A DNA stretch of 64,000 nucleotides from Bryum argenteum (Eukaryota; Streptophyta; Bryopsida; Bryales; Bryaceae): contig CM073327.1 in the NCBI GenBank assembly GCA_037043015.1, positions 3,454,727 to 3,518,726 on the forward strand, read 5' to 3'. This document shows, piece after piece, positions 18,181 through 30,900 of the stretch. Positions within the stretch are counted from its first letter, which is position 1. Each line of letters begins with the position of its first letter. The notes under the pieces are model-generated. The model did no database searches. It was not told where the DNA came from and worked only from the letters and a program-made list of their open reading frames with translations. The position numbers and the translations under genes were made by a program.

Positions 18181-18313
18181 CCTGTTGTCAGGGACACGGA
18201 AACAGATGATAAGAATATGTGGAAACTAACAAGAACTGACAGGAGCTTGAATTAACAAGAAGAGTACACGAACAACAACAAGAGAGATGAGCTAGAGCTC
18301 CAAGAGATGCGTT

Positions 18314-18343
18314 GTCGAGACTGAGGTTGCCCTCAGCCTCGAC
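18314..18343 (-). other. Stem-loop near predicted LTR transcript start
   Basis: GTCGAGACTGAGG (18314-18326) pairs with CCTCAGCCTCGAC (18331-18343) around a TTGC loop with one mismatch. It sits just downstream of the TATA box on the minus strand, so it would fall at or near the RNA 5' end. Confidence 0.6.
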
Positions 18344-18382
18344 TCCTATATATACTAGCTAAGAAGAAGGTTCTCCAGAACC

Positions 18383-18660
18383 TTCCTCAACCTAGGACCT
18401 TCTAGGACCTTCCAAGAACTTCCAAGACCTTCCAGAAGCTTCCAAGGCCTTCCGGAAACTTCAAGGACCTTCCAAAAACTTCCAGAGACTTCCAGGAACT
18501 TCCAGAAGTTTCCGGAAGCTTCTAGAACCTTCTAGAACCTTCCTAAGTTGTCTACCTAGTACGTGGCCGTGACACAGGGAATCTTCAAGGAATCTTCGAG
18601 GAATCTTTTAGGGAATCTTCATAGAATATTTTAGAAGAACCTTCTAGAAACTTCTTGTGT
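18383..18660 (-). promoter_or_regulatory. Heat-shock-element array
   Basis: Within 18500-18542 the trinucleotides TTC and GAA alternate every five bases without a break (TTC at 18500, GAA 18505, TTC 18510, and so on to TTC 18540), giving nine contiguous pentamers. The canonical heat-shock-factor site needs only three. Around it, imperfect TTCCAAGA and GGAATCTTC units continue on both sides (18383-18500 and 18575-18660). The array lies upstream of the TATA box on the minus strand. Heat inducibility is inferred. Confidence 0.7.
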
Positions 18661-18955
18661 ATGTCCGTGACACCTGTGCCCCTGCGGCCTGCGCCGACTG
18701 GAACGGCAACGAATGCGCAGAAAGTGAACAGTGCCCCCTGCAATGGGAGCGCGGACCCCACGAGAAACGACGACGACGAACGCGAAGAACGGTGAGCGAG
18801 CTCGTTGGAGGGCGGGCAGTGAGGCGCCACCCCTCCACTGTTCCCACCTTTGGTGGCGAGGGAGGCCCAGAGGTCTGCGGGCGGAGACCTTTCGAAAGGG
18901 AAAGCAATCATCCGGAGAGGGATTTACAAGACATGACAGGGAAGAAGACTCAAGC

Positions 18956-24959: not shown

Positions 24960-27137
24960 ATGGAGCTCGAGCGGGCCGACCATGAGGACTATGTCGGAGA
25001 CGGCACGGTTGATTTTCGACGACGTCAATGCAAAAAATCCTCGTCAGGGCAGTGGAGAGCTGCCTTCTTCGTCATGGGTACCCCTTCTCTACCAAATCTG
25101 GACGAGTCATCGAATGGAAGTTGCACAGATTGTATGATGATTGACTGAGTTTGGGTTTTGGTGTGGCAGGAGTGCAGCTGTTGGAGCGAGTTGCGTACTA
25201 CGGCATCGCGCTGAACTTAGTGACGTACCTGGTGGTCGAGCTTCACCAGGGGACACAAGAGTCCAGCTCCACCATCTTCAACTGGGCGGGCGTGGCATGG
25301 CTGTTGCCGTTGCTTGGCGGCTTCTTGGCCGATGCATACGTCGGCCGATTCTGGATGATCGCCGCGTCTCTTGTTATCTACCTCCTGGTACGGACGTCCG
25401 AGCCGTTTAATCGATTAAAAAAAAGAGAAGGAAACGAAGCACTTGGATATGGTTATTTTACTTGAGAAAGATCAGTGAGAGTGAGTATGGCGATTGACGA
25501 TGAACCGGGAATCTTGTTCAGGGTCTTGTGCTTCTGTCGGTGTCCATGTCGATTGATGGACTACGACCACCACCTTGTGTGATCACAAGCGCGAACTGTG
25601 TACCGGCAACACCAGCACAGAAAGGATTTTTCTTCGGAGCGCTCTACGTGGTGGCCATTGGAGTCGGTGGCGTATCGCCATGTCTGTCACCGTTCGGCGC
25701 CGATCAGTTTAACGAGGACGACCAGAAGGAGAGACGAATGAAGCGCTCGTTTTTCAATTACTGGGGGATCGCCATTTCTGGTGGCAGCGTCGTCGCCCTC
25801 TCTGGTAAGATCGAACAACACCCTCGTCTTGATAATCTTGTGTCGATGTGTGCGAGATGGAATGAGTGGATTGATTGGGGTGTGCCTGCAGCGCTGGTGT
25901 ATGTGCAAGATCGGGTTTCGTGGGGATGGGGTTTCGCGCTGCCGGCGTTCGGGCTGGCCATGGCGATCCTGCTGCTTATCTGCGGCATTCCCAGGTACCG
26001 GCACCAGCTACCCAAGGGCAGCCCCTTGACAGAGGTAGCGCAGGTGTTCACCGCGGCCTTCCGCAATGCAAAACAGGACATTCCTAACGATCCATTCCTG
26101 CTTCACGACGTCACTAAGGAGGGGCAGATAATCGTGCTTCACACGAACACGTTAAGGTGCGCCCGCTTCCATCCGTGGTACCCCGTGCTCCCATGCATCT
26201 TCTAACGTTCGTATGATCAATTCGGCAGGTTTCTGGACAAAGCTGCGGTGATCCGACCAGAGCTCGCGGGTCAGGTAAAAACAACGAGTCCGTGGCGACT
26301 GTGCAGCGTGACGCAAGTGGAGGAAGTGAAGCTGTTGGTACGCGTGATGCCCATCTGGGTCTTCTCCTTGATGTTCATGGTGCACATCACACAGCTCACC
26401 TCCTTCTTCCTTCGTCAAGGGATCAGCATGGACTTGTCCATGGGCCCCAACTTCAAGATCCCGGCCGCATCGCTTACCATCTTCAACTCCTTGACATGCA
26501 TCCTGACCATCCCGCTCTATGACAAGGTAATCACAGTTTGAAAGTGCAGTGCTCACTTCGATTATGGCTTTCTCGATCTTATGAGTGCTCGATTTTGTAG
26601 TTTTTCGTGCCGCTGATGCGCCGGATCACGGGCAACGAGCGTGGAATCTCTATGCTGCAACGAATTGGCGCGGGCCTGGTGATCACCACGATAGCGATGG
26701 TGGTAGCGGCCGTGGTGGAGGGCAAACGATTGCAAGTGGTGAAAGAGCACAACCTGCAGGACCGGCCGGGAGTGCCAGTGCCCATGAGCGCGTTCTGGCT
26801 AATCCCGCAGTACGTGATCTTCGGCATCGCCGAGATCTTGGTCATCCTCGGCCAGATCGAGTTCTTCTACGACCAAGCCCCTGACAACATGCAAAGCATC
26901 GGGACCGCTCTGTACACTAGCAACACCGGCGTCGCGCACTTCCTCTGCACTGCCATTCTTGAACTCACGGTCAGGGCTACCAGACACAGCGATCAGCCTT
27001 GGATTGTCAACAATTTGAACCGCTGCCGCATTGACCTCTATTACTGGATGCTGGCCACTCTTGGCGCTGTCAACTTCGTTTTCTATCTTCTCGCTGCGAA
27101 ATGGTACACTTACAAAACAAGCGTACGCCACTACTGA
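24960..27137 (+). CDS. NRT1/PTR family (NPF) proton-coupled transporter
   Basis: Six exons: 24960-25077, 25170-25387, 25522-25804, 25892-26156, 26229-26526 and 26601-27137. They join in frame to 572 residues, normal for this family. The N-terminus holds the family-typical DGTVDF, then the first helix ERVAYYGIALNLVTYL, then ADAYVGRFW, FGADQFNEDD, FFNYWGI, QGISMDLSMGPNFKIPAASL, TGNERG and IEFFYDQAPDNM. About twelve hydrophobic helices span the plasma or vacuolar membrane. Family members import nitrate, di/tripeptides or hormones with protons; the C-terminal half looks most like the peptide-type NPF5/NPF8 clades, an inference from memory. The ExxER motif reads Q42-L-L-E45-R46, so its first Glu is replaced. 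The start is the first ATG before DGTVDF; an AG at 24957-24958 hints at a 5'-UTR intron. The gene is convergent with the next one. Confidence 0.92.
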
Positions 27138-27973: not shown

Positions 27974-30900
27974 CTACTCCTCGGACTTCGACTCCTTCTC
28001 GGACTTCTTGGAAGAAGATTTCTCCGACTCCTGGGACTTCGATTCCTCCTCAGTTTTGCTCCCCGACTTCTTGGAAGAAGATTTGGTCTCGGAAGACTTG
28101 CTCTCAGACGAAACCTCCTCGGAGACAGTTTCGGAGATCTCAGTCATGTCGGAGATGAGAGAATTGTCCTTCTCCTTCATGGACTTCTCGAAGTCTTTCA
28201 CTTCCTCCTCGAGCTGTTGCGCCTTTTCGATCTTCTTGATGGCATCCCTCTCACGGCCACGGATGACACGCTTGTGCTCCTCGACCTTGACACCCACCTT
28301 GCGAAGCTGCTCTTCCAAGCTGGAGTTCGTGCTCTCCAACTCCTCAATCTCGCTCTCGTACTCTGAGATCTTCTTCTCCAGCGAGTGGAACTTGCTCTCG
28401 AAGCTTTCGGCCTTGCGGGACATGTGTTTCAGTTCCTTTCTCGCCTCGTCACGTTCCTTGCGAAGAGTCTTGAGCTTGCTGCTCAAATCTGCCAGACGGT
28501 CGCTGTGCTTCTGCAGAATGTTATCCTTCTCGGAGATTGTGGAATCCTTCTCCGAGAGTTCCGCGCTCAGACCGTCGACTTTAGCGGCCTTGCTCCTCGT
28601 GGAGTCCAATTCCTTCGTCAGTCGCTCTTCAGATTCGTGAAGCTCCTCGACCTTCTTCATCTCCTCCTCCAGCCTGGAAGATAGAGTGTCTGCTTCATAG
28701 GCTCTGGCCTTCACAGTTTCGAGTTCCTCGCGGAGACGCTTCTGGTCCTCCGACTTGCCCTCGGACTTCTTAATCTCCTCCTCGAGTCTAGCGGACAATT
28801 CACGAGCTTCCGCGGCCTTCGACCTTGTGCCCTCGAGCTCCTCGGCAATCTTCTTGACAGCCTTGGATTTCTCCTTCACTCGCTTCTCCTCCGCGCTCAA
28901 TCGCTCCGACAGGTCGTCAGCTTCGGCAGCCTTCGCCTTGTAGGAGTCCAGCTCCTCGAGCAAGCTCTTCTGCGACTCAGTAAGCTCCTTCACCTTGTTC
29001 ATCTCCTCCTCGAGCCTGGAGGATAGATCATCAGCGTCGGCAGCTTTGCTTCTGGCAGCATCGAGCTCCTCCCTGAGTCTCTTCTGGTCCTCTGATTTAC
29101 CCTCCGACTTCTTAATTTCCTCCTCAAGCCTGGCGGACAAGCTGCGAGCCTCCTCAGCCTTCGACCTCGTCTCGCTCAGCTCCTTTGACAGTCTCTTCTC
29201 AGATTCCGTCTTCTCCTTGACGATCTTAATCTCCTTCTCCAGCCTGGAGGACAGACCCTCGGCTTCGTAGGCCTTGGCTTTAGTTGACTCAAGTTCTTCC
29301 CTGAGCTTGCGCTGCTCCTCCTCCTTGCCATCGGCACGTGCAATCTCCGCCTCGAGCCTGGAAGACAAGTCCTTTGATTCAGACACCTTCTTCCTGTGAA
29401 TCTCGAGCTCTTCGGAAAGTCTCTTCTCAACATCATCTCGCGACTTCAACTTCTCAGATTGTTTCGTCACTCTCGTCTTCAAGGTCTTAGTTTCGCTCTC
29501 GTACTTCTCCTCGAGCTCGTGCATTTCAGTCTCGAGAGTGGTGTAGTGAGTGTCGGCTTCGTAAGCTCTCGCCTTCACTGACTCCAATTCCTCCCTGAGC
29601 CTGCTCTGCTCCTCGGACTTGTCCTTGGAATTCTTAATCTCCTCCTCAAGTCTGATGGACAGAGAGCGAGCTTCCTCGGCTCTGGCCCTGGTATCCTCGA
29701 GCTCGCGGGCAATCTTGGCAATACCTTCAGATTTCGCCTTCACTCGCTCTTTCTCGGCGGACAGCTCGTCGCGGAGGTTGTCGAGCTCGTAATCCTTGGA
29801 GCGAGCCTCGTCGGCCTTCTCCTTGGCCAATGCATCCTTCTCATCGGCCTTGGAGTATGCGCTCGACACCTTCTCCCTGATGCTGGTAATGCTCTCCTCC
29901 AAGCTTCTCTTCTCCTTCGACAAGCTGTCAACTTGCCTCCTTGCGGCTTCCTTCTTCTCCATGGCTGTCTTCTTGTCAGAGTCGATTGCTTGCTTCTCCG
30001 ACTCAAGATGATCTACTTCATCTTCCGCCTCCGAAAGATGTTTCTCAAGGTCCGCGATGCGCTCAGCCAACACACGTGCGTGACCGGAATCAGCATCAGC
30101 CCTCTTACGGAGCTTGTCAAGCTCCGACTCGAGGGAAGCAGATTTATCCTGCTCGTGAGACAGATGATCCTCAAGCTCACTGGCGCGTGCAGATTCGTTC
30201 TCCAAATCCTTCTTGTACTTGCTCAAGATCGACTCAATCCTCTCCTTCGCAACGCCGAGAGACGAAAGCTCAGAGTCCATGTCCTTCACCTTCTTGGACA
30301 TCTCAGCCGCGCGGCGGTCAAGCTCCGCTGCCCTCTCTGCATTTTTAGCGGCCCGATCCTTGTACTCCTCAACCTAAACAAACGAAATACGGTATCACAC
30401 GTTAGACATTGAAGCAAGGCAGAGTCTTTATCCCATCTATCACATCTGTTCGCATGATCCCCAGCAAAAGCCATGGACATACCTTGTCTGCCAAGCTGCT
30501 GATCGTACCCTCCTTTCCTCCGATGACGGAATCCTTCTCACTGATAGTCGACTTGGCTTCAGAGTACTTAGCACGATACGTCCGGAGCTCCTTCTCAAAG
30601 CCGGAAGCCCTCTCCAAAGCCTCCTTGAGCTCGCCCTCAATCTGGTACACGCGAGCATCCAATTCCACCACCTTCGCCTTAGCATCGCGAGCTACCTTGT
30701 TAGCCTTCTCTGTCTGGCTGTTGGCAATGTCGAGAGCACCCTCGCAATCCTTGAGTGTCTTCGCTAACCGGTCGACCTCAGACTCAAGGAAATGAATCCT
30801 CTGTTCACGATGCACAACAAAGCAATGTCACAAAATGCAGCCAACTCAAACCCAAAAAAACATTCCAGCTACATATCCTATCCACTACAGGCTAGCTCTC

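Follow-up and report, generated by a model that had tools for sequence, protein, structure and literature searches.

A solo long terminal repeat with an extended heat-shock pentamer array in the moss Bryum argenteum, and the predicted self-priming chromovirus to which it belongs

Does a long terminal repeat (LTR) standing alone in a moss genome carry a heat-responsive promoter, and what kind of element left it there? The question is raised by 64,000 nucleotides of Bryum argenteum DNA (GenBank assembly GCA_037043015.1, contig CM073327.1, positions 3,454,727 to 3,518,726), called the window here and numbered from its first letter, in which a 487-bp LTR contains a long run of heat-shock pentamers. 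We consider it likely that a recently active, self-priming Ty3/gypsy chromovirus, probably of the Tcn1 clade, left this solo LTR behind, and that the family would be induced by heat through the action of heat-shock factors (HSFs) on an array in the unique 3' (U3) region of the LTR. The features of the LTR are as follows.

18186-18672, minus strand (sense, read U3, repeat region R, unique 5' region U5): solo LTR of 487 bp; full copies with the same LTR read likewise
18181-18185, no strand: left copy of the target site duplication CCTGT, an exact 5-bp repeat
18673-18677, no strand: right copy of CCTGT, also exact
18636-18655, minus strand: four-pentamer heat-shock element (HSE) near the LTR 5' end; subfamily B, described below, has an HSE at the corresponding place
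18578-18621, minus strand: three GAAGATTCC-type inverted pentamer pairs, spaced 11 and 23 bp
18559-18574, minus strand: internal copy of the LTR-start motif TGTCACGGCCACGTAC, which also opens subfamily C LTRs
18499-18543, minus strand: nine contiguous perfect HSE pentamers, alternating GAA and TTC
18394-18543, minus strand: array of 15 units with period 10; every unit has GAA, all in a single 5-bp register, and TTC is degenerate in part
18347-18354, minus strand: TATA box TATATATA, recognized by its sequence and by its spacing to the primer across copies
18314-18343, minus strand: 13-bp inverted repeat with a 4-nt loop, across the predicted start, with compensatory changes
18312-18322, minus strand: predicted 5' end of R and self-primer AGTCTCGACAA, complementary to a primer-binding site (PBS) 2 nt inside full copies

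An earlier, sequence-only reading of the window had proposed a solo LTR with TGTCA...TGACA ends and a perfect CCTGT duplication, and all of these were found in place. The termini are TGTCAGGG...CGTGACA, giving TG and CA ends, CCTGT stands at either flank, and a single LTR is present with no internal region. The best explanation is that one LTR remained after LTR-LTR recombination of a full element. The TATA box reported at 18347-18354 is likewise present, and in full copies both the coding pieces and the polypurine tract agree with the proposed minus-strand direction of the promoter.

The uninterrupted run of nine pentamers was confirmed, and a chance run of motifs was rejected: when the LTR was shuffled 5000 times with dinucleotides preserved, no run exceeded 3 pentamers (a length reached in 78 shuffles). 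Pentamer runs in the rest of the 64-kb window also reach 3 at most. The LTR has two further runs of three (18429-18443, 18449-18463), and 20 inverted GAA/TTC pairs in it are spaced at 5 bp. The array had been called unusually long, which it is, but its extent had been understated, because GAA recurs at 10-bp intervals through 150 bp; the alternate TTC slots are intact in some of the 15 units and degenerate in others. With runs of nine and four, the LTR falls in the 4P type of heat-responsive element (HRE), defined by at least four adjacent pentamers. Across the whole genome, a seven-pentamer pattern gave 179 + 174 matches, compared with 9 + 2 for a reversed control, and the 100 matches listed are by eye all sequence of this LTR, with up to three matches per LTR.

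The proposal had been staked on related LTRs and full-length elements elsewhere, and a search of the genome (258.8 Mb, 25 contigs) found many copies, both as LTR ends and as junctions. The U5 end of the LTR matched 177 times with up to two mismatches (reversed control, 1) and the LTR/internal junction 105 times with up to three (control, 0); positions were analyzed for 100 of the 177 and 100 of the 105 matches. The 100 listed LTR ends comprise 5' LTRs (19), ends with a listed junction 5.6-13.1 kb upstream of them (19, of which 17 at 5.64-5.70 kb), and solo candidates (62). Twenty of the latter were fetched: four are 3' LTRs, since a polypurine tract precedes them, three have unrecognized ends, and the flanks of the remaining 13 are free, ten showing an exact 5-bp duplication and three a 4/5 match. 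When five further LTR loci were checked for duplications, three were exact (the window copy included), L002 matched at 4/5, and L008 had no match. Solo LTRs therefore seem to outnumber full copies among the listed exact-match ends, in a comparison where the junction search can overlook full copies with an altered junction. Kimura two-parameter distances between the LTRs of ten pairs scored for age were 0.002-0.048 (the pair L088/L089 was not scorable), and an identical LTR sequence occurs at six loci, from which the window copy deviates at two positions. The best explanation is a young, recently active family.

The family is a Ty3/gypsy chromovirus whose coding strand is minus relative to the window. 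Full copies are about 6.2 kb long and contain pieces of gag, protease, reverse transcriptase (RT), RNase H, and integrase, in gypsy order, and a chromodomain. In pieces of two copies, Pfam recognized gag (PF03732/PF19259), protease (PF08284), RT (PF00078), and RNase H (PF17919/PF17917), while integrase was recognized only by its H2C2 zinc domain (PF17921, in two fragments) and an SH3 domain (SH3_Tf2-1, PF24626). A CCHC knuckle is visible by eye in gag, and the RT bears VDYRGLNK. A C-terminal chromodomain (PF00385, 61.2 bits) is present in copy L095 and divided between frames in L010, and the polypurine tract GAAGGGGAGGTGA follows the chromodomain, ahead of the 3' LTR. In one copy the chromodomain aligns with that of CDYL, with YEV, HW, and GY opposite YEV, RW, and GY; the residues that form the aromatic cage are at these positions (YEV, W, GY), and this copy retains the cage described for Tcn1. 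Not all copies are intact, since pieces of L010, L095, and L096 show stops or frame changes. Membership in Copia was rejected on the gypsy gag and RVT_1 domains. RVT_2 is common elsewhere in the genome. The type of the element is in keeping with a moss host, as is rbcL, which matches a cluster named for the moss Fissidens at 95% and clusters named for flowering plants at 94%.

How such an element would start and prime its RNA can be read from the distance between TATA box and primer, for which 49 loci were examined and two yielded no distance. The distance from the first T of the TATA box to the A of CAGTCTCGACAA is exactly 32 nt in 40 of the 47 scored 5' LTRs (range, 31-35), and such spacing is normal for an RNA polymerase II start. 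Transcription is therefore expected to start at A18322, 32 nt downstream of the box. The first 11 nt from this start, AGTCTCGACAA, are perfectly complementary to TTGTCGAGACT, which lies 2 nt inward from the boundary of the 5' LTR, so the predicted RNA 5' end can pair with sequence adjoining the 5' LTR, as in Tf1-type elements. Over 47 distinct rows, 94.7% of the cells of this 11-pair primer/PBS helix pair, versus 27.5-48.4% after sliding by 1-3 columns, and nt 1-11 pair with the PBS in the minimum-energy fold of RNA from the predicted start. We infer that the element RNA would fold back so that its first 11 nt pair with the complementary site, 2 nt beyond the 5' LTR, and that these nucleotides, after cleavage, would prime reverse transcription. 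The layout is that of Tf1-type self-priming, which has been predicted for plant Tcn1 elements (PMC6317226). The cited passages of that survey predict self-priming for the majority of Tcn1-clade elements in plants but not for any other plant chromovirus group, and report the chromodomain aromatic cage in 95% of Tcn1, 59% of Chlamyvir, and 56% of Galadriel elements. Because the self-priming layout and the retained cage residues fit this survey, the family is probably a member of the Tcn1 clade, an assignment made from features of the element.

The array was compared among LTR subfamilies. Among the junction loci listed with mismatches, 40 of 49 were fetched (all 25 with two or three mismatches and 15 of the 24 with one), together with nine exact ones. 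One of the 40, L032, is a different sequence and was omitted from the alignment and the pentamer-spacing scoring; L041, which has no primer region, was kept for covariation and pentamer spacing and omitted from the tree. In this tree (130 R-U5 columns, 48 rows), groups A (19 rows, window included), B (17), and C (6) are each single with strong support, and D (6) takes two changes; all four had been named by eye beforehand, from sequences that include part of R. Mean R-U5 distances are 0.045 in A, 0.072 in D, 0.129 in B, and 0.132 in C. All four subfamilies have pentamers at 5-bp spacing in differently worded U3 regions, and selected HSF binding is therefore favored. The U3 of B is short (87-147 bp) with one HSE, and a run of at least three pentamers occurs in 11 of 17 copies; 5-bp inverted pairs number 7-17 in C, 12-16 in D, and 12-20 in the tree rows of A, where runs are 4-9 pentamers long. 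Inverted pairs at 5 bp exceed those at each of 4, 6, 7, and 8 bp in 76 of 79 copies scored, and the 5-bp count was unmatched by any of 200 shuffles in 70 of the 79 (the other nine belong to B), in counts where copies within one subfamily are not independent and where, if the LTR start was unrecognized, 320 bp before the TATA box were scored, possibly including flank. Runs decay after insertion, and an older copy with a shorter run may therefore descend from an array that was no weaker. Subfamily C LTRs open with the motif found at 18559-18574, so 18575-18672 looks like an added module of 98 bp. Given this internal C-type start in A, and a tandem LTR-start module at 46 bp in B copies L016, L021, L023, and L035, the U3 regions appear to have grown by gaining HSE-bearing modules.

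The subfamilies are also distributed unevenly. The older subfamily B is concentrated on contig C1 (44.1 of 258.8 Mb, or 17% of the genome), with 71 of 83 pattern matches, and the young subfamily A is scarce there, with 8 among the 100 LTR ends listed, which reach as far as a point within contig C8; the concentration of B could mark a sex or low-recombination chromosome. At L011 (G000:C4:1584700-1586200), two subfamily A LTRs lie 1.9 kb apart in the same orientation, and between them is an open frame resembling, by eye, the RNase H-integrase part of another gypsy element, into which both probably inserted. Four junction matches spaced 1.4-2.0 kb apart on one strand form a tandem cluster of element ends at G000:C7:15759895-15765304.

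Heat induction of the family is the reading to be weighed. In full elements, trimers of host HSFs would bind the U3 array and activate the TATA-box promoter, giving an RNA that begins at A18322. We predict that the LTR responds to heat, and the window copy may still work as a promoter. In the parts of the literature cited here, the presence of 4P HREs in Brassicaceae LTRs correlated with heat induction that reached a thousand-fold (PMC5059998), the ONSEN LTR is bound by HSFA2 (PMC3907296), and RLG2, a gypsy family of moss, is upregulated by heat and abscisic acid (ABA) (PMC7466625).

Several observations weigh against this reading or parts of it. RLG1 of Physcomitrium patens is repressed by heat shock in the same source (PMC7466625), and heat induction is therefore not general in moss gypsy elements. 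Six of the 17 subfamily B copies have no three-pentamer run at all. An origin by 10-bp tandem copying makes a regular register easier to obtain than dinucleotide shuffles assume. The primer/PBS pairing is conservation only, not covariation: its score was reached by 173 of 500 shuffles and its percentage paired by 267 of 500. The whole RNA fold is not exceptionally stable (z, -0.96; 36 of 200 shuffles at least as stable). Finally, the neighbors of an RT piece were mostly relatives without names and yielded no clade, and the probable Tcn1 membership is, as noted, drawn from features of the element.

Two other accounts of the array deserve consideration. The LTR may bind HSF for constitutive or developmental expression, or for expression under another stress such as ABA or drying, with no heat switch. 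RLG2 responds to ABA besides heat, and drying and rewetting are normal in moss life (PMC7466625), but the window array exceeds 4P, the strongest heat-responsive class described for plant LTRs in the cited part of PMC5059998, and we regard this account as clearly the less likely. Somewhat less probable again is that the array is a neutral 10-bp U3 minisatellite that happens to contain GAA and TTC and is no HSF target. Tandem repeats are common in LTR U3 regions, this array is tandem with period 10, and tandem copying alone preserves register. However, subfamilies B and D have 5-bp-spaced pentamers in U3 regions worded differently, and a separate four-pentamer site lies at 18636-18655. Furthermore, the 15 units show no mismatch in the GAA columns, as against 1-8 in each of the remaining seven. 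When mismatches were spread evenly, 10 of 100,000 simulations produced three adjacent columns free of them, a figure biased by the unit phase having been set on GAA, though Tandem Repeats Finder recovered the same 15-copy, 150-bp array independently of GAA. Heat induction through the array remains the reading we prefer.

The inverted repeat across the predicted start had been described as a cap-site hairpin. Its 13-bp arms (18314-18326 and 18331-18343) are present, with one G.U pair in RNA that is a mismatch in DNA, but it is probably not a structure of the RNA 5' end, because A18322 falls inside the 3' arm, which holds AGTCTCGACAA starting at the predicted cap site. Both sides have changed in 6 of 13 pairs (shuffle mean, 2.4), and two-sided change occurs in 35 cells versus 9.1 in shuffles, where cells count related sequences and independent events are fewer. 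The cells pair at 95.5%, versus 36-49% in slid versions; pair types show no excess (14 versus 13.7 in shuffles). The clearest compensations are T-A to C-G within subfamily A and A-T against G-C between subfamilies. A correctly started RNA would have only the 3' arm at its 5' end, free for the PBS, and the whole repeat at its 3' end, where the identical primer copy would be sequestered by its U3 arm. This suggests that the inverted repeat would lock the unwanted 3' copy away. Alternatively, the covariation might mark a genuine 5' leader hairpin, with a start upstream of 18343, which we find improbable. The first T of the TATA box would then be no more than about 11 nt away, a distance too short for RNA polymerase II, and the 11-nt primer would be left internal; moreover, element RNA should contain the full repeat where U3 meets R in the 3' LTR, and this could itself account for the covariation. 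Most improbable of all is priming by initiator tRNA-Met at ATATCAGAG, a sequence that many copies have some 30 nt into the element and that resembles part of the tRNA-iMet site, as this motif lacks TGG and is distant from the LTR, whereas the 11-nt self-complement 2 nt from the LTR is in the usual PBS position. More speculative than heat induction itself, and tentative at best, is a broader reading in which the lineage has repeatedly rebuilt its U3 around pentamers, from the one HSE of B to the arrays of A, C, and D, partly through LTR-start modules, with the cap-site repeat as the lock.

What is new is a heat-element LTR, of a type best known from Copia, within a self-priming chromovirus. The sequence-only reading had drawn a parallel with ONSEN/COPIA78 of Arabidopsis, which holds for function, adjacent nGAAn/nTTCn pentamers in the promoter region being shared (PMC3907296, PMC5059998), and fails for superfamily: as described in those sources, ONSEN is Ty1/copia with four adjacent pentamers (4P), and the window family has Ty3/gypsy domains and nine pentamers within a 150-bp array. 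The heat response of ONSEN has been demonstrated, while that of the window family is predicted from sequence. ONSEN lacks CG and CHG sites, a property only partly mirrored in the window U3 (CG, 6 versus 15.2 expected; CHG, 8 versus 11.2).

Among probable relatives, Tcn1-clade chromoviruses of mosses and club-mosses share the Ty3/gypsy organization, the chromodomain with an aromatic cage, and predicted self-priming, according to the cited parts of PMC6317226 and PMC2864245. SM-Tcn1 of Selaginella, with LTRs of 440 bp, has the same TG...CA ends, 5-bp duplication, and polypurine tract, but it was found to have neither a tRNA PBS nor self-priming, in contrast to the explicit self-primer of the window family. 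In the available text of the two papers no HSE array is mentioned, and the word "heat" is absent from that of PMC2864245; nor is an HSE array in the LTR of a moss or Tcn1 element evident from titles and abstract openings of a mostly open-access literature. RLG2 of P. patens resembles the window family in being a gypsy LTR element from a moss, and both heat and ABA induce it (PMC7466625, in part). The Cryptococcus LTR retrotransposons TCN3 and TCN12 also have putative LTR HSEs (two and one, respectively) and are mobilized at 37°C, transposition having been measured in that fungus according to the cited part of PMC12810828.

Tf1/sushi retrotransposons share with the window family an RNA 5' end complementary to a PBS adjoining the LTR. 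The Tf1 self-primer is also 11 nt long. Unlike in Tf1/sushi, the primer in the window family lies within one arm of a covarying inverted repeat over the predicted start, and no such repeat in self-priming elements is announced in literature titles and abstract openings.

The heat-responsive LTRs described in detail in the sources cited are those of Brassicaceae Copia elements. If our reading is true, this chromovirus of a non-seed plant, with its longer HSE array, would show that a further superfamily became linked to the heat response independently. With identical copies, dated pairs, and four subfamilies all in one genome, the relation of array strength to heat response and copy success can be tested directly, and solo LTRs with intact arrays would be scattered, potentially heat-responsive promoters.

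Two features lie nearby on the U3 side of the window LTR.

25504-27137, plus strand: PTR2/POT-type (NRT1-like) transporter in two exons (25.5-26.2 and 26.6-27.1 kb), recognized by Pfam
27974-30373, minus strand: open frame of 799 residues, highly charged and coiled-coil-like, with weak Pfam matches below curated cut-offs

On the other side, nine open frames left of the LTR (eight minus, one plus; 10.2-18.2 kb, in a scan of the longer frames above 10.2 kb) had no Pfam match, and no minus-side target gene can therefore be named; one of the nine overlaps the LTR end by 40 bases. As a clue to targeting, tRNA genes were looked for and none was found in the 64-kb window. Among the 20 window frames scanned, only the two PTR2 exons pass the Pfam cut-off, and this transporter, the nearest recognized gene among them, is divergent to the LTR.
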